A DNA stretch of 22,426 nt from a virus. Below, in pieces: positions 2,810 through 17,842 of the stretch. The first letter of the stretch is position 1. Each line of letters begins with the position of its first letter. Location: positions 1-22,426 of the IMG/VR virus record IMGVR_UViG_3300046328_000462. The stretch is one strand, 5' to 3'. Under the pieces are notes generated by a model. It saw only the letters and a program-made list of their open reading frames with translations. It had not been told where the DNA came from and did no database searches. The position numbers and the translations under genes were made by a program.

Positions 2810-3257
2810 TTATTCCATATACTAACACTAATATTTTACTGTCTGTAGTAATATCATCCATACCTGATATACACAAATGTTTGAAATCTTGAATATTGAA
2901 TTTATTTTCTCTTACTAATTGAGATATTTCTAATATTTCAGATTCTTTAGTTCGCATAATAGTAGATAATGCTGACTTAGAGAAACTAAAACATTTACTA
3001 ACATTTTCTTGATTTACAGGTTTTAATTGTGAACTATCACCTACAAATAAGATTTTAGTATTACTAATTTGTTCAATGTATTCTAATAGTTTATCATTTA
3101 ACATACTACATTCATCAATGATGATAAGGTCATAATAGTTAAGTAATGGTTTACCTATCATATTGAATATAGGATTATTTGGTGTAAATTCTTTTAAATC
3201 TACATCAGGTTGCCACTTACTTGTAGCAACCTCTTGCAAAATGTCTTGTTTTGTCAT
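2805..3257 (-). pseudogene. Internal fragment of a Dda/RecD-like SF1 helicase
   Basis: The 150-residue product carries SF1 helicase motifs in order: Walker B LIIIDECSML (D48, E49), motif III ILFVGDSSQLKP (G73 to P80) and the following IMRT with Arg102. The region before Walker B (EFTPNNPIF, then PLLNYYD) is the typical Dda-type linker. What is absent is decisive: there is no Walker A (GxGKT) domain in front and no second RecA domain behind. The chain ends ILVLVYGIS where intact helicases continue into domain 2 (roughly ILVYTNK). With no P-loop it cannot hydrolyse ATP alone. It is probably a remnant of a replaced or rearranged helicase, or a retained fragment with another role. Confidence 0.75.
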
Positions 3258-3270
3258 AGATGTATTAAGT

Positions 3271-3546
3271 TTAATCGTAAATTTCTATTTCTTTTACAAA
3301 AAGTAATTCCCATAAAATAGGATTTTTCCCATTTCTATCAACAGAAAAATACGCTTTATTTTCCCAAATAAGATTTGCTTTTATTTCATTTTTTTCTTTT
3401 TGACTTAATCTTGCTAACTCATCTTTTATGAAATTATTAGCAGAAATGGAATTAGAAAATAATCTTAATTGTTCTTCTTCTACCCAATATGCCCAACAAT
3501 CTGAATCATTAGCTTGGGTATTTTTCATTACAGCATATATAATCAT
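3271..3546 (-). CDS. Hypothetical protein, 91 aa
   Basis: Starts MIIYAVMKNTQANDSDCWAY, with a beta strand followed by an acidic, Trp-containing middle (CWAYWVEEEQLRLF) and a helical segment rich in Lys/Glu. Similar short proteins with an N-terminal strand and a helix are common among phage accessory genes, but I cannot name a family. A variant of the AAACTTTAAA element (3556-3565) lies nine bases before the ATG and overlaps the end of the upstream 49-residue gene, which suggests its own transcription or translation signal. Confidence 0.75.
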   Translation of the reverse strand: MIIYAVMKNTQANDSDCWAYWVEEEQLRLFSNSISANNFIKDELARLSQKEKNEIKANLIWENKAYFSVDRNGKNPILWELLFVKEIEIYD

Positions 3547-3555
3547 AGTTTTATG

Positions 3556-3565
3556 TTTAGAGTTT
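3556..3565 (-). promoter_or_regulatory. Upstream AAACTCTAAA element (variant)
   Basis: The minus strand reads AAACTCTAAA, nine bases before the ATG at 3546, with the TTTTT extension on its 5' side that is also seen at 4055 and 5142. Confidence 0.4.
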
Positions 3566-3713
3566 AAAAATCTTTTTCTAAAAATATCATATTGTTACAA
3601 TTTATCACAAAATTATACCGATATATAGCACATTCAAAATCATCTACTACAGTAATATATCTTATAGGGATGTAGATATTTCTGTATTTATAGCTTATTC
3701 TGTAGTATGTCAT
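3564..3713 (-). CDS. Small protein, 49 aa
   Basis: A complete minus-strand frame from the ATG at 3713 to TAA at 3564 fills an otherwise empty gap between two accepted genes. The peptide begins MTYYRISYKYRNIYIPIRYI, so it is Tyr/Ile/Arg-rich, probably a small beta protein, and ends LEKDF. It starts four bases after the stop of the 108-residue gene, the same spacing as other coupled genes here. No family is recognised. An overlapping plus-strand frame of 66 codons was judged antisense. Confidence 0.6.
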   Translation of the reverse strand: MTYYRISYKYRNIYIPIRYITVVDDFECAIYRYNFVINCNNMIFLEKDF

Positions 3714-3717
3714 AATT

Positions 3718-4044
3718 TTATTCTAAATAATCATCATAAATTGTAATAGTAGGCAATTTAAAATCATATTTTTTCATTTTGTCTACAACAACAGAATGAT
3801 GTAATTCAAATACTTCTGAAATATCATTTATCTCAATAGTCCAGCAAAGATTATTTACTGTTCTATATAATATAGTATGACCAAATTCATTAACATAAGA
3901 ACTATGGTTATAACCTTCTGTATACCATAATTCAGGGATTCTTTTTTCAAGTCTTATTTCAACACAATCTACATACTCTAAAACAGCTTTAGGATGAGGA
4001 GTTCTGTTATCCTGATTAGAGGCTCTTTTTAGTCTAAATTTCAT
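3718..4044 (-). CDS. Hypothetical protein, 108 aa
   Basis: Soluble protein beginning MKFRLKRASNQDNRTPHPKA, with alternating hydrophobic residues through the middle (AVLEYVDCVEIRLEKRI; HTILYRTVNNLCWTIEI) that suggest a mostly beta fold, and an acidic C-terminus (YDDYLE). No catalytic motif is evident. It is the first gene after a 190-base intergenic region and has a perfect copy of the AAACTTTAAA element ten bases upstream (4055-4064), so it likely heads a leftward unit that includes the 49- and 91-residue genes. Confidence 0.75.
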   Translation of the reverse strand: MKFRLKRASNQDNRTPHPKAVLEYVDCVEIRLEKRIPELWYTEGYNHSSYVNEFGHTILYRTVNNLCWTIEINDISEVFELHHSVVVDKMKKYDFKLPTITIYDDYLE

Positions 4045-6686: not shown

Positions 6687-6691
6687 AAAAT

Positions 6692-6701
6692 TTTAAAGTT
6701 T
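6692..6701 (-). promoter_or_regulatory. Upstream AAACTTTAAA element
   Basis: Perfect copy, five bases before the ATG at 6686. Confidence 0.5.
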
Positions 6702-6762
6702 AGTTTAATTTCTTGGTAACTACACCTTGCTCTGTATTTCTACAGTCTTGTAAGAATCCCAT
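6700..6762 (-). CDS. Possible 20-residue micro-ORF
   Basis: A minus-strand frame from ATG at 6762 encodes MGFLQDCRNTEQGVVTKKLN and stops at 6700-6702, inside the regulatory element of the next gene. It occupies the only gap between the terminator at 6784-6807 and the 153-residue gene. It may be a leader peptide or chance; length alone gives little support. Confidence 0.2.
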   Translation of the reverse strand: MGFLQDCRNTEQGVVTKKLN

Positions 6763-6783
6763 ATCTAATTATTTAAGGTAAAT

Positions 6784-6807
6784 AAAGCCTCCTAAATAGA
6801 AGGCTTT
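6784..6807 (-). terminator. Probable Rho-independent terminator
   Basis: AAAGCCT (6784-6790) pairs with AGGCTTT (6801-6807) across a ten-base loop. On the minus strand the stem is followed by ATTTACC, a short T-run only. It lies 45 bases after the stop of the 49-residue gene at 6852, which fits termination of that leftward transcript. Confidence 0.55.
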
Positions 6808-6851
6808 AAGTGAATAATAATTGATTTGTCAGTATGCACTACTAATGAGAT

Positions 6852-7001
6852 TCATTTAACCTCAACAACAGTAATACTTTGAATGAATACTTGGACATCA
6901 TCAGCTTTGATAATGTCAATAACATCAGCTCTACAAGCAGCTTCAACTGTTGTGTGAGCAATAGTACCTTTGTACAAATAAACCACGAAGTAAACTTTCA
7001 T
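6852..7001 (-). CDS. Small protein, 49 aa
   Basis: A complete minus-strand frame from ATG at 7001 to TGA at 6852. The peptide begins MKVYFVVYLYKGTIAHTTVE and continues with AACRADVIDIIKADDVQVF, giving a strand-helix-strand pattern typical of small alpha/beta phage proteins. Its coding look is strong: no rare codons, good alternation and a terminator just behind. Upstream, TTAAGAGTTAAAAATT on the plus strand resembles the AAACTTTAAA element with one base missing. No function is known. Confidence 0.65.
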   Translation of the reverse strand: MKVYFVVYLYKGTIAHTTVEAACRADVIDIIKADDVQVFIQSITVVEVK

Positions 7002-7030
7002 TTGGGTAAAAATTAAGAGTTAAAAATTCA

Positions 7031-7059
7031 ATAAAAATAACAGACTATAACTGGTCTGT
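7031..7059 (-). terminator. Terminator-like hairpin ending the structured RNA
   Basis: ACAGAC (7040-7045) pairs with GTCTGT (7054-7059), and on the minus strand the stem is followed by TATTTTTATT. This fits a 3' end for leftward transcription of the structured region. The stem is only six base pairs, so strength is uncertain. The plus strand has no T-run after the hairpin. Confidence 0.45.
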
Positions 7060-7279
7060 AAGCAGCATCAACATATATTTTTGATGTTATTATGATGTAA
7101 CATCCTAAAGGCATTACCCTTTATTCTTTCGGAGAATAGCATTAATTGTAGCTTAAATTCAGCGAGCTTTATGTTTTCAGCAAAGCTACAATTACTCCTT
7201 ACTCAAATATAACAAGTTGATATTTGTTATATTATATACGCACACCTGTTTTGCAGGATTTCAAGATTGCATAATTCTA

Positions 7280-7368
7280 TGGTAGCAGATAAAGGAATTG
7301 AACCTCTTTTATACCACCCCTCACTATACTATTGTGATTAACTCTTTATGAGGAGTTCAGGAACTGCT
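7280..7368 (-). ncRNA. tRNA-like element with CCA end
   Basis: Read on the minus strand, 89 bases fold into four arms. The acceptor is AGCAG/CTGCT (7364-7368 with 7284-7288, two more pairs possible with one mismatch), followed by A and CCA at 7280-7283. The T-arm has a canonical TTCAATT loop (7296-7302) on a five-pair stem that needs a G-U pair. There is a D-like arm AACTC/GAGTT and an anticodon-like arm TCAC/GTGA. Unusual points: the D-like loop lacks the conserved GG, position 8 is C, and the anticodon loop is nine bases unless a mismatch is allowed. It is either a divergent or decaying tRNA, or a tRNA mimic inside the larger RNA. Confidence 0.4.
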
Positions 7369-7769
7369 ATTTAATGTTACCATATTTCTATGGTCTGCAC
7401 AATACAGTTATCAACTGCAAGCCGTGGTGATTAATTTATCCATAGTCTAAGAGTTTATGTTATTATCTCTTAGTTCAAACTATATAGTATTTCTACATAG
7501 TTCAAGCAAGTATCCAACTTGCTGCTTTCATTTGAGTTTCAGGATATTGTTTTTAGTGCGTTAGGGTAATTACATCATTTAAGACAACCTATTCTAAACT
7601 ACTAAAACAAATTAATTTAAAGTATATTCCAACTTTATTTCATTCCTAACTCAAATTTATCTCATTTAAGGGCTTACACTCTATATTTCTATGAGTATTA
7701 ATTGTTAATTTTATAGAAATATAACAAAAAGAAAATAGCCTTAACTTATATAGCTAATACTATTCAATA

Positions 7770-7913
7770 TTACTTTAAGGATTTTAACTGCCAGTCTTTA
7801 AATGACTTGTAGTCAGCAGAATATACTTGTTGTCCAAAAAGAAATAATACCACAAGGTTTCCTTCTACTGTGTAGTCATTGAAAGAATATCCTTTAAATT
7901 CACGTATAAACAT
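7770..7913 (-). CDS. Small protein, 47 aa
   Basis: A complete minus-strand frame from ATG at 7913 to TAA at 7770. It encodes MFIREFKGYSFNDYTVEGNL followed by VVLFLFGQQVYSADYKSFKD, an alternation of aromatic, charged and hydrophobic residues that looks like a real small domain. It ends WQLKSLK. It lies between a terminator (7959-7980) and the structured non-coding region, so the RNA could be processed from its 3' untranslated region. Family and function unknown. Confidence 0.6.
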   Translation of the reverse strand: MFIREFKGYSFNDYTVEGNLVVLFLFGQQVYSADYKSFKDWQLKSLK

Positions 7914-7958
7914 TGTTATAAAATTTAGAAATTATGTTAAAAAACTAAGAAGAATATA

Positions 7959-7980
7959 TAAAGGGTATTTCTACCCTTTA
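7959..7980 (-). terminator. Probable terminator
   Basis: A nine-pair perfect hairpin, TAAAGGGTA / TACCCTTTA with TTTC loop, starts 12 bases after the stop of the 96-residue gene. On the minus strand it is followed by TATATTCTTCTT, only moderately T-rich. The G/C core of the stem stands out in this A/T-rich genome. Confidence 0.6.
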
Positions 7981-7991
7981 CCTTGTGAGCC

Positions 7992-8531: not shown

Positions 8532-8999
8532 ATAAATAACTATTATGTACCTGAAATAGAAGAGTTCTATGTTGGGTTTGAATTTGAATGTAGACACCAT
8601 TTAAATTCTGAATTTAAACATACAAATATAACAGGAAATTGGGGTTGGAACTCTTTTATAGATATAGAAGAAGAAATAGATGCGGGAGGGATAAGAGTAA
8701 AATATCTTGATAAAGAAGATATGGAAGAATTACTAAATAGAAAGCAATTAAAAGGAAATGATGTAGAATTAAATTTACAAATGAAAATAACTGATGAGTT
8801 AATTTATGAGTTTGATTATAATACAGATACTAAATTATTAGACATACAAAAAATTGTATTATATGTAAATGGGTTAATGGATACTTGTGAATATTTATTT
8901 CAAGGAATTATAAAAAATAAATCAGAATTGAAAAAACTATTAATTCAGTTAAATATTTTAACATCTGCTAAAAATATAAACATTAATTCTATAAATTAG
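8532..8999 (+). CDS. YYxPE-family phage protein with non-standard start (first paralogue)
   Basis: The open frame begins after a TAG at 8526-8528 and is coding-like from its first codons: NNYYVPEIEEFYVGFEFE aligns with TDKYYTPEKEEFHIGFEYE of the next gene. Alignment puts the start at ATA (8532-8534), where the paralogue has ATG. No ATG, GTG or TTG occurs in frame until the ATG at 8721, which would remove 63 residues including the most conserved part. The C-terminal motif KNKSELKKL is also shared with the paralogue. The family is common in Bacteroidetes phages and its role is unknown. It may be a pseudogene with a lost start, or use AUA initiation. Confidence 0.6.
   Translation: MNNYYVPEIEEFYVGFEFECRHHLNSEFKHTNITGNWGWNSFIDIEEEIDAGGIRVKYLDKEDMEELLNRKQLKGNDVELNLQMKITDELIYEFDYNTDTKLLDIQKIVLYVNGLMDTCEYLFQGIIKNKSELKKLLIQLNILTSAKNININSIN
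8691..8722 (+). repeat. 32-base direct repeat, copy 1
   Basis: Identical to 9245-9276. It encodes the I-R-V-K-Y-L-D-K-E-D segment shared by the two paralogues, so it reflects duplication or gene conversion. Confidence 0.85.
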
Positions 9000-10420: not shown

Positions 10421-12304
10421 ATGAAAGAAAGAATAATTAAAGAACTCTTCACAAATCCTAATAGAAGTAATACTAATATAGCAAGAGAAATATTACCAAA
10501 TGGACTACATAGAGATATAGAGAAGTTAAGAAAACAAGTAGGTAAGTTAAGAAATAGTGAAGTTGTAAATAATAACTATTACACAAATGATACTTATTTA
10601 CCTGATGATGAGATATATACAGAGCCTATGATAGAAGCACTACAGAAGTCAGGGTATAATGTAACAGGAACTAATGATTATATTTGTAATAAAAACAATA
10701 TGATTAAATTACCTAACAATGTATTGGTTATACCAGACCTTCATCTACCTTTTTCTACAGACCAACATTTACAGCATTGTGTTAAAATGAAAGAGAAATA
10801 TAAATGTGGTAAAGTTATATTTATAGGAGATATTGTAGATAATCATTATTCATCATTTCATACAGCTAACCCAGATGAATTAAGTGCTGGACAGGAATTA
10901 GATTTAGTGAAGTTACAGATAAAGAAATGGTACTCTTATTTTCCTGAAGCTACTTGGGTAATGGGTAACCACGATTGCTATAGTGCTGATACTGAAGTAC
11001 TTACAGATAATGGTTGGAAGAATATTACAGAAGTAACTTTAGAAGATAAAGTAGCTGTTGAGAGTAATGGAATTAACTATGAAAATCCTACACATTTAAT
11101 TCATACTAAAAGTGATGAATGGTATGAAATAGAAACTCCTTATTCTAAACAGATAGTTACTCCTAATCATGACTGCTTATTATCACATAATGGAGAATTA
11201 ATAAAGAAGAAAGCTAAAGATATTACCACTGATGATTTAAAATACTTTATAGAATGTAGTAGTAAGGGTAATATAGAATATGATATTACAGATGAGATAT
11301 TAAGATTATTAGTACAAGTAATAACAGATGCTACATTAGTTAATTATGAAAAGTATAATGCTAAATCTAAGAAAAGAGTAGTACAGTTTAAATTAAGTAA
11401 AGAAAGAAAGATACAAAGACTTACTGAACTATTAGAAAAAGGTAATTATAACTATACTTTGAAACTTTGTAAGAAAGGAGAATTGAATAAATTACAACCT
11501 TACTACATTAGATTATATGGAGATATAGCAAGACAGATATTTACTCTGTTAGATAATGTAAAAGGGTTTCCTACTTGGTTTAGAAATTTATCAAGAAGAC
11601 AAGTTGAATTAGTAATTGAAGAATTAAGTTATACTGATGGTCATAAGAATATCAATAATATTAGTTGGAACACAATTAATAAAAGTGATGTTGATATAAT
11701 GCAAGAAATCTGTGTTACTAATGGTTATAAGTTTAAATGGCAACCAAAAGAAAATACTACAGGATTTGCTAATGGAAAATTACAATATGTTTGTAGTATA
11801 TTACCTTATAATATTAATGGTACAAAGTATAGTATTGAAAGACATAAGAAGATATATGATAAAGATTTCTATTGTTTAACAATGCCTTCTGGTAATTTTA
11901 TAACAAGAGTAGATGGTAAAACTTGTTTTTCAGGTAATTGCATACCACAAAGAAAGTTTGCTGAAGCTAAATTAAGTAAACAATGGTTAAAAGGATTTAA
12001 TGAAGTATTGGGAGTTAATTGGGATATAAAGAAGAGCTTAGTATATAATGGAGTATATTATGTCCATGGAGAAGCAATGGAAGCTAAAGCTATGGCAGGT
12101 AAAATAGGTATGCCTGTAGTACAAGGGCATAGACATTCTTCTACTTATATTCAATATTTAAGTCAGAAGATATGGGCAGTACAGACAGGCATATGTTTTA
12201 ATAAATATACTTATGCAAGTGATTATGCTAAAGAAAGTACAGAAACTTGGGTAGAGACAGTAATAGTAGTAGAAGATAAAACACCACATATAATTGCAAT
12301 GTAA
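10421..12304 (+). CDS. Calcineurin-like metallophosphoesterase interrupted by an intein, 627 aa
   Basis: The host protein (exteins, 306 residues after splicing) has the metal-binding motifs of calcineurin-like phosphoesterases: D106-L-H108 (VIPDLHLPF), G136-D137-xx-D140, G182-N-H184-D185, V548-H549-G550 and G569-H570-R-H572. An N-terminal part of about 90 residues (Lys/Arg-rich, with KELFTNPNRSNTNIAREI) resembles a helix-turn-helix domain and may target the enzyme to DNA. Such phage enzymes may act on nucleic acid or nucleotides; the substrate cannot be read from sequence. Residues 186-506 are the intein. The chain resumes at C507 with IPQRKFAEAKLSK, so activity requires protein splicing to join GNHD to the later His motifs. 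Confidence 0.9.
   Translation: MKERIIKELFTNPNRSNTNIAREILPNGLHRDIEKLRKQVGKLRNSEVVNNNYYTNDTYLPDDEIYTEPMIEALQKSGYNVTGTNDYICNKNNMIKLPNNVLVIPDLHLPFSTDQHLQHCVKMKEKYKCGKVIFIGDIVDNHYSSFHTANPDELSAGQELDLVKLQIKKWYSYFPEATWVMGNHDCYSADTEVLTDNGWKNITEVTLEDKVAVESNGINYENPTHLIHTKSDEWYEIETPYSKQIVTPNHDCLLSHNGELIKKKAKDITTDDLKYFIECSSKGNIEYDITDEILRLLVQVITDATLVNYEKYNAKSKKRVVQFKLSKERKIQRLTELLEKGNYNYTLKLCKKGELNKLQPYYIRLYGDIARQIFTLLDNVKGFPTWFRNLSRRQVELVIEELSYTDGHKNINNISWNTINKSDVDIMQEICVTNGYKFKWQPKENTTGFANGKLQYVCSILPYNINGTKYSIERHKKIYDKDFYCLTMPSGNFITRVDGKTCFSGNCIPQRKFAEAKLSKQWLKGFNEVLGVNWDIKKSLVYNGVYYVHGEAMEAKAMAGKIGMPVVQGHRHSSTYIQYLSQKIWAVQTGICFNKYTYASDYAKESTETWVETVIVVEDKTPHIIAM
10976..11938 (+). mobile_element. Intein with LAGLIDADG homing endonuclease domain (321 aa)
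   Basis: The first residue is Cys186 (CYSADTEVLTDNGWKNITEV, block A). Block B is VTPNHDCLL with T-x-x-H. The C-terminal blocks are FYCLTMPSGNFITRV (F) and DGKTCFSGN followed by Cys+1 (G). The middle has two degenerate dodecapeptides, residues 294-304 (LRLLVQVITDA, D303) and 397-407 (LVIEELSYTDG, D406). Each keeps an acidic residue, so the endonuclease may be active. The terminal Asn506 is preceded by Gly, not the usual His, which some inteins tolerate with slower splicing. Insertion falls directly behind the active-site motif GNHD, a conserved site typical of inteins. Confidence 0.92.
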
Positions 12305-13386: not shown

Positions 13387-15513
13387 ATGGAATTAAATGA
13401 ACATATAGTAGATAGGTTAAAACATTATCAGCTATGGGTTAATGAAGAAGCAGCTACTAAGCTGCTTTCTTCTTATACTCCTATGGAGAGTAGTTTATAT
13501 CATTCACAACCTACACCTTCAGTATTTAAGAATACTCATCTATTAAGAGAAGCAGCTATTAAGAAAGAAAGTACAGGTAAATATTGTGAATATTTATTTG
13601 GTAGTAAAAGATATGTTGAATTTGCTGAAGAAGAAGTAAGAAGATGTAAAGAAGGATATACTATCAATGAAGGTACTGAATATGAATTAAGTATTACAGG
13701 CTATCATTATTTCTTTCTGAACTATAAGAATATAATGGCTAAGGATAAGTCTAAAAAGAATAAAGGTAGGGATTGGGGATTTCCAAGATTTGAACCTTTA
13801 CAATATAACTTCTTTTGGGCTTATGAAGAAGCTGTAGCATCTGGAGAACATCTCTCATTACTAAAAGCCAGAGGATTAGGAGCTTCTGAAATGCTTGCAA
13901 GTATAGCATCTTGTAATTATACATTATCTAAAGATAAGAATTTCTTCTTTGCAAGAGATGAAAAGAAACTTTTAGGTGATGGTGTATTTACTAAAGTGAA
14001 TGACCATTTAGGATTCCTTAATAGAAATACTGATAGAATGTTTCATCATAATAGAATTACTGACGGTGTATTACATAAGGTAGCTGGTGATAAGGTTCTT
14101 AATGGAAAAGATAAAAGAACAGGAGGAGAAATAATAGGAAGAATTATAAACTCTCCTGATGATACTAAAGGTAGTAGAGGTATGCTTATTGGTTTTGAAG
14201 AAGGGGGTTCTTTCCCTAATCTTATAAAAGCATACAATAGTGCAAGACCTTCTGTAGAAGAAATAGATGGTACTGTCTATGGAACTATAGTAGTATGGGG
14301 TACAGGGGGTACTCATAAAGCTGAAGACTTAGAAGGGCTTAAATCAATGTTTTATAATCCTAAAGGATTCAATCAAAAGGTATTTAAGAATAAATGGAGT
14401 TCACAAAACTATAATGAAGATTGTGGATTCTTTGCTCCTGCTTATTATTATGCTCCTAACTTTACAGATGAAGATGGTAATATAGATACTTTAGAAGCAT
14501 TTCTCTATATAATGGCTGATAGGTTTAAAATACAGAAAGATAGTAATAGTGATACTAACTTAGACCAAAGGATACAAGAATATCCTATTATACCAGAAGA
14601 AGCATTACAGAAAAGAGGTAAAGATAAATTTCCTACTAAAGAATTAGAGATGCAGTTACACTTTATAGAGAATGAAAAAGGTATGAAAGGTTTATGGGAT
14701 TATGGTTGGTTTCATAGAAGTAATGAAGGTAAACTTTACTTTAAGAGAGAAACTAATGCTAAACCTGTATTACAATATCCTATAAAGCCTGATGTTAGTG
14801 GTGGTCTTAAAGGTTGTGTAGCTATATTACAACATCCTAAGAAAAATGTAAATGACGTGATTTTACCTATATACTCTATCAGTGTAGATGGTTATTCAGA
14901 AGATACATCAGAATATTCTGATTCTGTAGGAGCTATATATGTGATGAAACAATATAGTAGACTTGTAGAGAAGGATAACCTTAGTGGAAACATAGTAGCT
15001 AACTATGTAGGTAGAATGGATAAGACTAAAGACTTTGCAAGACTGTTATTTGAAATAGCTGAATATTATAATTGTGTAAAACAAGTACATTTTGAAAGAA
15101 GAGGTGGTGGTAAGATTATATTAGATTATGCTAAAGATAGACCAAGGCTTTTACAATATTTAGCACCAACTCTACATATTCTTGACAAGAGTATAAAGAA
15201 AAGAGTAGCTACAAGTTATGGTAATCATTTTACTGAAGATGAAAACCAGAGGGGTGTAAACTATTTAGTAGATTGGCTTATGGAAGAAGTTGAAAATAAT
15301 GATGAAAATAAACTTACATATAAATATAGATTACATAATTTATATGATATAGGATTGATTAAGGAAATGATTAATTTTGTAGAAGGGAGAAACTATGACA
15401 GAATAAGTGCTATGAGGCAACTTATGTTTGTCTTGAAAGAAGAGATTAAAGATGACAAGATTATAAATATAAACCCATATAAACTATTGAAAACAAATGA
15501 ATGGTTTAAATAA
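13387..15513 (+). CDS. terL: Terminase large subunit (TerL), 708 aa
   Basis: Packaging ATPase and nuclease that translocates DNA into the prohead through the portal. In the ATPase half the P-loop reads LLKARGLGASE (residues 158-168): the Lys before the final Ser is replaced by Ala, and Lys160 lies at the front, like the displaced lysine of lambda gpA. Walker B is MLIGFEEGG (E271-E272), and the coupling motif is VVWGTGGT (G305-T309). The nuclease half has candidate catalytic acids D501 (SISVDGYSED), E570 (HFERRGGGK) and D671 (YDRISAMRQ). Length is typical of crAss-like and related TerL. The 17-base overlap with the portal gene shows coupling. Confidence 0.9.
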   Translation: MELNEHIVDRLKHYQLWVNEEAATKLLSSYTPMESSLYHSQPTPSVFKNTHLLREAAIKKESTGKYCEYLFGSKRYVEFAEEEVRRCKEGYTINEGTEYELSITGYHYFFLNYKNIMAKDKSKKNKGRDWGFPRFEPLQYNFFWAYEEAVASGEHLSLLKARGLGASEMLASIASCNYTLSKDKNFFFARDEKKLLGDGVFTKVNDHLGFLNRNTDRMFHHNRITDGVLHKVAGDKVLNGKDKRTGGEIIGRIINSPDDTKGSRGMLIGFEEGGSFPNLIKAYNSARPSVEEIDGTVYGTIVVWGTGGTHKAEDLEGLKSMFYNPKGFNQKVFKNKWSSQNYNEDCGFFAPAYYYAPNFTDEDGNIDTLEAFLYIMADRFKIQKDSNSDTNLDQRIQEYPIIPEEALQKRGKDKFPTKELEMQLHFIENEKGMKGLWDYGWFHRSNEGKLYFKRETNAKPVLQYPIKPDVSGGLKGCVAILQHPKKNVNDVILPIYSISVDGYSEDTSEYSDSVGAIYVMKQYSRLVEKDNLSGNIVANYVGRMDKTKDFARLLFEIAEYYNCVKQVHFERRGGGKIILDYAKDRPRLLQYLAPTLHILDKSIKKRVATSYGNHFTEDENQRGVNYLVDWLMEEVENNDENKLTYKYRLHNLYDIGLIKEMINFVEGRNYDRISAMRQLMFVLKEEIKDDKIININPYKLLKTNEWFK

Positions 15514-17842
15514 ACCTGAAAAGAAGGTATTATATAGAGAGAAAGTAAAAGATGATTTTGCATATTGTAAAGATTGGATAAAGTGGTGTATATCTGCAAG
15601 CAGATGGCATGCTACTTCTATTACTTCTTACAATGGTATGAATATTAATGCTGCTGCTTTATATGAAATAGCTAATGGTAGAATACCTGCTGACTGGTTT
15701 AAACAAGTTACTAATGCTTTTAATTATGGTGATGGTAAAGAATTACCTGCTAAGATAGATGACTTTAATTTAGTATATCCTTCACTACAGTATTTAGAAG
15801 GTAAGAAGATAGAACTTCTCTCATTATTTAATTATCAAGTAGAAAATATGAGTTCTGAATTTGCTACTAAGCAACAAGAAGAGCTTAATAAGTTTACACA
15901 AGAAGAACTACTTAAAGTATTCAATGAAGATGAAGATGCTGCACAAGGAGGTGTAGAGTTAGAAAAGAAAACTAAAGAGTTCTTGTTAAGTTATAAGGAT
16001 AACAAGGCTCTCCGAGGACAAGATATATTAGATGTAATCATAAGAGAAGAAGACTTTAAGGAAAAGATAATAGAATGCTTTAGACATTGGAATATAGTAG
16101 GAGAAGCTATTATGTATATGAATGTTGAAGATGATAGAATTAATATTTTACCTATTAGTCCTTTATATGTAAGTCAGAGTAAGATTAGTTATGATTTCAA
16201 AAATAGATATTTACAAGACCAAGATTGGATATGTGTTAGATATTATTGGAGTTCATCAGAGATTTTAGATAAGTTTAGATATACTTTCACTGATAAGCAG
16301 ATAGATGAATTAGAGCATGAAGGTAATCACAATAGTAGATTTGCTCTTATCTTTGGTACTGAATATTTACAAGAAAGATATAGGTCTTATAATGAAAATA
16401 TAGAATGTATTCATTGCCAATGGACAGTATATAAAAAGATAGGTAAAGTAACTTATCCTAATCCTCTTACAGGTGAAATGGAAGAGATGGAAGTAGGAGA
16501 AGATTTTAAATTAGATAGTTTTCTTAAAGACCAAGGTTGGACTATAGAATGGACTTGGGTAACAGAGAAATGGGAAGGATGGGAAATAGCTGGAAAACAT
16601 CATATAGGTATAAGACCTTTACCTGTGCAGAATGGCAAGTTAAATTATTATGGTAGAAAATACTCAAATCTACATTCAGCTAATACAAGTGTAGTACAAT
16701 TATCATTACCTTATGTAAAACTCTTTTGTGTACTATGGTTTCATTTAGAGAAAGCAGTACAGAAGACTAAAGGTAAGATGTTATTACTACCTATACAAGC
16801 AGTAGCTGGAGGAGAAGGTAGAGAAGAATGGGATTTTAAAGAAGCCCTTTACACTGCTGAATCTTTAGGTATTATGTTATATGATATGTCAAATCCAGCA
16901 CTACAAGGGCAGACATTAAATAATATAATGGGTACTGCAACAGTAAGTCAAGCAGAAGAAGCTATGTGGCTTATGCAGATGTTAGAATACATAAAGAAAT
17001 CTTGGTTAGATATGATAGGTATTAATCCTTCTTCATTAGCACAGAATATGACTGATAAAGGATTAGGAGTAATGCAAACAGAAATATATCAGTCAAGTGT
17101 AATTACAGAACCTATATTTTCACATTTTGAGTTCTTTGAAGAAAAGCTATTACAGAGTATATTAGATTACTCACAATATGCCTATATCAATGGGAAGAGT
17201 ATGACTGTAATCAGAGATGATAATTCAGTAGCTTTCTTAGAAGTAGATGGTATAGACCATCTTAATTCAGAGTATGGAGTATTTGTAACTAAGTCAAGAG
17301 ATGAAGCTAAAAGATTAGATGAATCAAGGAAATTAGCATTAGACTTAGCTTCACAAGGACAAGACCCAGCTAAATTAATAGAAATGGTATATGCTAAGAA
17401 TAGCAGTAAGCTCAAAGAAATATTATATGAATTAAAGAATAAAGAACTTGAAATAGCAAGACAGACAGCTAAAGATGAAGAAACAGCTAAACAAGAAACT
17501 ATACAAATGCAACAAGCATTTAAGCAATTTGAAGTAGAGTTAGATATTCAAAGAGCAGGTGGTATAATGGAAGCAGAGTTTCCATATAAGAAAGAATTAG
17601 AGTTAATAAAATTAGAAGCTAATCAATTAAGTTTCCAAGGAGAGACAGATAGTAATGCTAATGGCATACCAGATGTAAATGAAGTAGAAAAGAGGTCAAA
17701 TGAAAGATTAAAGATGGGAATAGAATCTACACTTAAATTAGCAGAACTTAAATTAAAGAATAAAGAGATAGAAACTAAAGAAAGAATAGAGAATAAAAAA
17801 GCAGAGGTTTCTTTAAAGAATAAAGTTGTTGGAGAAAAATAA
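15497..17842 (+). CDS. Portal protein, 781 aa
   Basis: Identified from its position directly after TerL, length, and pattern: a charged N-terminus, a core with Trp/Tyr-rich strands (WICVRYYWSSSEILDKFRYT), repeated helices and a long C-terminal Lys/Glu coiled coil from about residue 640 to the end (KELEIARQTAKDEETAKQ, ERLKMGIESTLKLAELKL). Portals form a dodecameric ring at one capsid vertex and serve as docking site for the terminase. The size and the long C-terminal helical tail resemble portals of crAss-like phages. I infer the role from context more than from a single motif. Confidence 0.8.
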   Translation: MNGLNKPEKKVLYREKVKDDFAYCKDWIKWCISASRWHATSITSYNGMNINAAALYEIANGRIPADWFKQVTNAFNYGDGKELPAKIDDFNLVYPSLQYLEGKKIELLSLFNYQVENMSSEFATKQQEELNKFTQEELLKVFNEDEDAAQGGVELEKKTKEFLLSYKDNKALRGQDILDVIIREEDFKEKIIECFRHWNIVGEAIMYMNVEDDRINILPISPLYVSQSKISYDFKNRYLQDQDWICVRYYWSSSEILDKFRYTFTDKQIDELEHEGNHNSRFALIFGTEYLQERYRSYNENIECIHCQWTVYKKIGKVTYPNPLTGEMEEMEVGEDFKLDSFLKDQGWTIEWTWVTEKWEGWEIAGKHHIGIRPLPVQNGKLNYYGRKYSNLHSANTSVVQLSLPYVKLFCVLWFHLEKAVQKTKGKMLLLPIQAVAGGEGREEWDFKEALYTAESLGIMLYDMSNPALQGQTLNNIMGTATVSQAEEAMWLMQMLEYIKKSWLDMIGINPSSLAQNMTDKGLGVMQTEIYQSSVITEPIFSHFEFFEEKLLQSILDYSQYAYINGKSMTVIRDDNSVAFLEVDGIDHLNSEYGVFVTKSRDEAKRLDESRKLALDLASQGQDPAKLIEMVYAKNSSKLKEILYELKNKELEIARQTAKDEETAKQETIQMQQAFKQFEVELDIQRAGGIMEAEFPYKKELELIKLEANQLSFQGETDSNANGIPDVNEVEKRSNERLKMGIESTLKLAELKLKNKEIETKERIENKKAEVSLKNKVVGEK

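Follow-up and report, generated by a model that had tools for sequence, protein, structure and literature searches.

The gap and its genomic setting

The window, by which we mean the whole 22.4-kb IMG/VR fragment analysed here (22,426 nt), is divided into a leftward block of small genes of no assigned function, running from 8309 to 350, and a rightward block of structural genes that begins at 8721. Within the leftward block lies a 768-nt gap, whose ends are set by the stop of one minus-strand gene and the start of the next:

7770–7913, minus strand: upstream flanking gene (7913–7770), 47 aa, no family; an open reading frame (ORF) without a significant match in Pfam or PHROG
7002–7769, minus strand: non-coding structured region, ends corrected, 768 nt; no ORF of at least 36 aa, fold z of -4.0 and -5.3 on the two strands, three perfect stems of at least 10 bp
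6852–7001, minus strand: downstream flanking gene (7001–6852), 49 aa, no family; an ORF followed by a terminator-like hairpin at 6808–6783 (terminator scan)

An earlier note on this DNA had described some 700 bases without a credible gene, and this description holds. No ORF of at least 36 aa lies wholly within 7002–7769 on either strand. When frames were read through in search of a decayed protein, four of the six in a comparison with PHROGs and two in one with Pfam, no protein family emerged beyond a single chance-level match (E 0.048); a protein-coding frame across the region, which the note had named as grounds for giving up an RNA reading, was found neither among the ORFs nor in these comparisons. 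The other long gaps in the window measure only 338 and 183 nt. The G+C content of the region is 0.289, against 0.284 for the genome.

The large terminase (13387–15513) matches the crAss-phage family phrog_6681 (E 3e-86) and the portal (15497–17842) the crAss-phage family phrog_6547 (E 9e-71). Because the best terminase identities are low, at 33% to named phages and 37–38% within IMG/VR, the phage is a remote and divergent relative of Crassvirales, and the collections searched, from which records very near the window may have been excluded, contain nothing closely related to it. The window requires no stop-codon recoding, whereas the terminases of the crAss-like loci L002, L003, L004 and L006 are read with TAG as glutamine; a suppressor tRNA with a CUA anticodon is present in the crAss-like loci L002, L004, L005, L006, L087–L090 and L094. 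Elsewhere in the window, the metallophosphoesterase gene at 10421–12304 is split by an insert of about 300 aa that resembles an intein: residues 78–627 of the protein are spanned by the phosphoesterase profile, yet with only about 260 profile positions, and PhoH and thymidylate synthase families, which may carry inteins, match the insert. A 150-aa piece of a superfamily 1 helicase (AAA_30/AAA_19) at 2805–3257 matches only the second half of the profiles and seems truncated.

Structured elements of the region

Read 5' to 3' on the minus strand, the modules follow one another in the order 11-bp hairpin, domain of about 190 nt, GAAA hairpin, tRNA-type segment, 10-bp hairpin, 12-bp hairpin and terminator. 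The individual elements, with two hairpins of related form from the neighbouring gaps, are these:

7958–7981, minus strand: terminator-like hairpin with a UA-GAAA-UA loop and a long perfect stem, after the gene 8309–7992 (terminator scan)
7682–7723, minus strand: perfect 11-bp hairpin, sharing bases with a competing UA-GAAA-UA hairpin at 7696–7678
7430–7616, minus strand: multibranch domain of about 190 nt, enclosing three consecutive hairpins; possible closing helix AUUAAUUU/AAAUUAAU, and UAUCC (7546–7542)/GGAUA (7441–7437), in the centroid fold
7572–7603, minus strand: alternative tRNA 5' half (AGUAGUU, D-loop with GG), given by ARAGORN only at the 90% threshold and with a 228-nt intron
7505–7523, minus strand: hairpin AGCAAGU-UGGAU-ACUUGCU, pairing probability 0.91
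7476–7504, minus strand: hairpin of 11–13 bp, with G-U pairs on the minus strand and a UA-GAAA-UA tip, probability 0.96
7447–7473, minus strand: hairpin CUAAGAG...CUCUUAG, probability 1.0
7379–7394, minus strand: 6-bp hairpin ACCAUA-GAAA-UAUGGU, probability 0.96
7362–7368, minus strand: possible acceptor 5' strand AGCAGUU (6 of 7 pairs) of an intron-less, D-arm-poor tRNA-like form, seen in the sequence; ARAGORN makes no call
7280–7307, minus strand: tRNA-type 3' half, with T-arm AGAGG-UUCAAUU-CCUUU, acceptor strand AUCUGCU, discriminator A and CCA; the sole match in the window
7206–7233, no strand assigned: perfect 10-bp hairpin, 12 pairs with G-U when read as plus
7143–7194, no strand assigned: perfect 12-bp hairpin with a 28-nt loop (stem search)
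7083–7104, no strand assigned: 7-bp hairpin, of low probability (0.14) in the whole minus-strand fold
7040–7059, minus strand: terminator-like hairpin ACAGAC(8)GTCTGT followed by TATTTTTATT (UAUUUUUAUU), pairing probability 0.96 (terminator scan)
6732–6745, minus strand: hairpin CUGUA-GAAA-UACAG in the next intergenic gap

The perfect hairpins of 12 bp (7143–7154/7183–7194), 11 bp (7682–7692/7713–7723) and 10 bp (7206–7215/7224–7233) that the earlier note reported are all present, and three or more perfect stems of at least 10 bp arose in none of 300 dinucleotide shuffles of the region. Its two nested long-range helices, 7530–7536/7650–7656 and 7561–7565/7645–7649, fared less well: the complementarity exists, and the outer helix extends to 9 perfect bp, but an equal or better long-range helix formed in 34 of 60 shuffles, and we rejected the pair as a significant feature on that chance level. 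The same comparison with shuffles yielded no significant helix linking the 5' and 3' parts of the region. At a more local scale, the domain 7616–7430 has a z of -3.5, and its best long-range helix was reached in 1 of 60 shuffles; its closing helix has a mean probability of 0.49 in the isolated domain and of 0.0 in the whole-region fold. The hairpin triplet inside it (7523–7505, 7504–7476 and 7473–7447) has a z of -5.0.

Folded whole, the region has a z against shuffles of -4.0 as minus and -5.3 as plus, the strongest for each strand among the 768-nt stretches tested; the 17 other stretches range from +0.5 to -4.5 and lie mostly between 0 and -2.5, and a z of -4.5 belongs to 3162–3929 of the same window, which is largely coding. 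We calibrated this measure on crAss-like phages by folding 768-nt stretches in which hatchet and RAGATH RNAs are known; z ran from -0.2 to -4.8 and was often better on the wrong strand. The value of the region stands at the strong end, but fold z says little about whether a sequence is RNA and nothing about its strand, and we dropped it for strand assignment because the z of known arrays does not favour their true strand.

Of the readings of the gap, structured non-coding RNA is the most likely. The likelier strand is minus, since it has the flanking genes and the tRNA-type T-arm as well as the GAAA-tetraloop hairpins and, at its 3' end, the terminator-like hairpin. The terminator-like hairpin, which the earlier note had placed at the minus-strand 3' end, was recovered there by the terminator scan at 7059–7040. 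Against the minus strand, the part 7028–7236 folds better as plus, and fold energy does not favour minus.

The GAAA hairpins form a recurrent set. The most frequent 8-mer of the minus strand in the non-coding sequence of 6687–7991 is UAGAAAUA (TAGAAATA), with 5 copies in 1011 nt where 0.12 are expected and 0 of 3000 shuffles reach that number; since it was chosen as the top 8-mer, and at least one 8-mer is present five times in 4 of 500 shuffles, its corrected significance is about 1%. All five copies sit at hairpin tips as a GNRA (GAAA) tetraloop, the UA-GAAA-UA tip sites on the minus strand being 6732–6745, 7379–7394, 7476–7504, 7678–7696 and 7958–7981. L017, the closest relative, also shows such a hairpin, of 10 bp, at about 1330–1355 between minus-strand genes.

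At 7307–7280 on the minus strand, a T-arm of the form GUUCRAnnC with a 5-bp stem is followed by a 7-nt acceptor strand and CCA, as in the 3' half of a tRNA. In random sequence of matching dinucleotide content (845 million bases), this combination with five stem pairs occurs at a rate that predicts 0.0003 per window and 1e-5 per region; it was observed once, inside the gap. No tRNA cloverleaf was called by ARAGORN at default settings in the window, nor by the Rfam model RF00005 at E<=10. The intron-containing tRNA that ARAGORN builds at its 90% threshold was discarded as evidence, five more such calls being made elsewhere in the window; the sequence joined without the 228 nt is accepted at 95%. 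At a 60% threshold ARAGORN gave seven overlapping tmRNA calls, which are meaningless. The UUCAAUU arm can also be drawn as part of an ordinary extended hairpin, GGUGGUA/UGCUACC (probability 0.75), with CCA as simply the end of a stem. A degenerate tRNA, a tRNA-like module and a T-loop hairpin are all candidates for the segment.

Known RNA families and the arrays of crAss-like phages

The earlier note had raised GOLLD and ROOL as possible identities, and the Rfam search, which returned no family at threshold, gives them no support. The GOLLD model (RF02032) found no match in the region at its gathering score or at E<=10, and the ROOL model (RF03087) none at E<=10, a result that is weak alone, the model also being silent in all control genomes, and with which the full cmscan agrees. 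Also empty in the region at E<=10 were the hatchet, RAGATH-6 and RAGATH-7 models and the group I intron model RF00028, and a search of all Rfam at E<=5 produced two chance matches only, snoZ40 and mir-1175. As for the tRNA neighbourhood typical of GOLLD and ROOL, the window, itself a fragment, has no tRNA call, and the tRNA-type 3' half lies inside the region. There is thus no support for placing the region in a known RNA class.

Homologues of the region were found neither in 50,697 phage records, nor in 17 related virus records searched whole, nor in IMG/VR by four patterns, and two single-sequence covariance models gave nothing credible among 95 related loci. Relatives sought through the flanking proteins, or through the terminase alone, yielded none; aligning the terminase led to 80 loci, at best 37–38% identical, and to a similar region in none of them. 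Two apparent matches were set aside: a 21-nt exact match in L031 and L038, which is a chance match inside a coding gene, and a match of the hairpin-triplet model at 3802–3884 of L017 (E 0.27 over all loci), which is a short direct repeat beside a gene end.

Hatchet and/or RAGATH-6, -7 or -9 RNAs are encoded on the minus strand, 8–10 kb before a plus-strand terminase, in 6 of 13 other crAss-like loci from phage and MAG collections, two of which also have a tRNA-Leu. The RNA clusters are:

L004, 747–1981, minus strand: RNA cluster
L088, 704–2110, minus strand: RNA cluster
L005, 447–1829, minus strand: RNA cluster
L002, 198–2110, minus strand: RNA cluster
L090, 731–2363, minus strand: RNA cluster
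L095, 1836–2064, minus strand: RNA cluster

Along the minus strand of cr4_1 (L004), RAGATH-7 is followed by two hatchet RNAs and then by tRNA-Leu, with a small minus-strand gene on either side. The region studied here lies about 6 kb before the terminase, a position that, together with the strand of the neighbouring genes, is comparable with all six loci. A literature search found no paper describing hatchet or RAGATH RNAs in crAss-like phages.

Interpretation and comparison with known systems

Directly supported are the non-coding status of the gap and its excess of stems, together with a tRNA-type 3' half and, on the minus strand, tetraloop hairpins. The explanation that we think best accommodates them, at a probability of about 0.48, is an island of structured RNA modules encoded on the minus strand, with a tRNA-derived segment in their midst, resembling the arrays and belonging to no described family. 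Several modules are most likely, rather than one long fold. We counted against this island the lack of homologues in the searches above, and a G+C content equal to the background, structured RNAs of AT-rich genomes being in many cases richer in G+C. A more ambitious version, in which a deep-branching crAss-like lineage carries a new large class of phage RNA, with a tRNA-like CCA core and GAAA hairpins, independent of GOLLD and ROOL and replacing the hatchet/RAGATH arrays of its relatives, strikes us as distinctly unlikely.

Other explanations account for part of the evidence. The gap could be what is left of a decaying tRNA gene, or of several, perhaps with an intron: a 3' half survives while the remainder is drifting DNA with incidental hairpins. 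The T-arm, acceptor and CCA motif is what such a relic would leave, tRNA-Leu occurs in the RNA arrays of crAss-like relatives, and ARAGORN at 90% does join a 5' half at 7603–7572 across 228 nt into a product accepted at 95%. We nonetheless hold a relic to be rather unlikely, as five other intron-tRNA calls appear in the window at that threshold, neither ARAGORN at default nor the Rfam model at E<=10 sees a tRNA, and decay should not preserve three perfect stems of at least 10 bp. A single large ornate RNA of a new class, built like GOLLD or ROOL as a self-assembling cage with a tRNA in its linker, would suit the size, the phage context and the embedded tRNA-type segment. It seems improbable given that the GOLLD and ROOL models do not match, that the stable elements are local and that the 5' and 3' parts are not linked by any significant helix; we prefer the RNA island mainly because the arrays in crAss-like phages share its place and layout.

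Two readings do without RNA. On either strand the longest perfect stems look alike, and the plus fold is no worse than the minus fold, as would be expected if the inverted repeats served in DNA as a replication, packaging or regulatory site, but the T-arm with CCA and the GAAA tetraloops are meaningful on one strand only and an iteron-like array was not noticed in the region, which leaves structured DNA a poor prospect. An ordinary AT-rich intergenic spacer, its hairpins a chance excess, is equally hard to credit: the mostly coding 3162–3929 does reach a comparable z (-4.5) and the G+C content is that of the background, yet this is by far the longest gap of a compact genome, its stem excess is matched in 0 of 300 shuffles, and it contains the T-arm motif. 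As for a group I intron, free-standing or within a tRNA, an R-like AGACUAUGG (7448) and an S-like AUAGUCUG (7050) are pairable by inspection and UAUCC/GGAUA could be P3. RF00028 is empty at E<=10, and the 400 nt that separate R from S include the tRNA-like part, an arrangement at odds with the tRNA reading; an intron is extremely improbable.

If the gap is an island of RNA modules, it would be transcribed with the small leftward genes, ending at the hairpin 7059–7040. The tRNA-type segment, if still recognised, could be cut by the tRNA-processing nucleases of the host, and the GAAA hairpins might protect or mark the RNA ends. The stable RNAs released in this way would work in trans in the infected cell.

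In the human gut, Crassvirales rank with the most abundant phages; there is apparently little literature on their non-coding RNAs. Were the island equivalent to the arrays, an RNA-rich stretch before the structural operon would be a recurring feature of the group, its contents exchanged between lineages, and the function of such orphan RNAs could be tested in cultivable crAss-like phages.

Among known systems, a tRNA (class II-like) has the T-arm, acceptor strand, discriminator A and encoded CCA in common with the region; unlike a tRNA, the continuous sequence offers no acceptable D-arm or anticodon arm, the acceptor has a U-U mismatch and default programs are silent. GOLLD RNA (RF02032) is comparable in phage origin, in size (700–900 nt) and in the tRNA that sometimes occupies its linker, but the region has no match to the model, no domain-scale pairing and no intact tRNA. 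ROOL RNA (RF03087), also large, phage-encoded and often near tRNAs, shares origin and size with the region, which differs in lacking a model match and in lying in a window without a called tRNA gene. The group I intron (RF00028) finds pairable R- and S-like motifs here, but at the wrong spacing and with no model match at E<=10. Compared with the hatchet/RAGATH arrays, the region has no hatchet, RAGATH-6 or RAGATH-7 match at E<=10 and no significant Rfam family, and its phage is remote (terminase about 33% identical); the likeness is one of place and layout, not of homology. In those arrays, for example of NC_055893 cr4_1, NC_055892 cr109_1 and MT835839, structured RNA is interspersed with small genes of the minus strand and precedes the plus-strand operon of terminase and portal by several kb, as it seems to do here.
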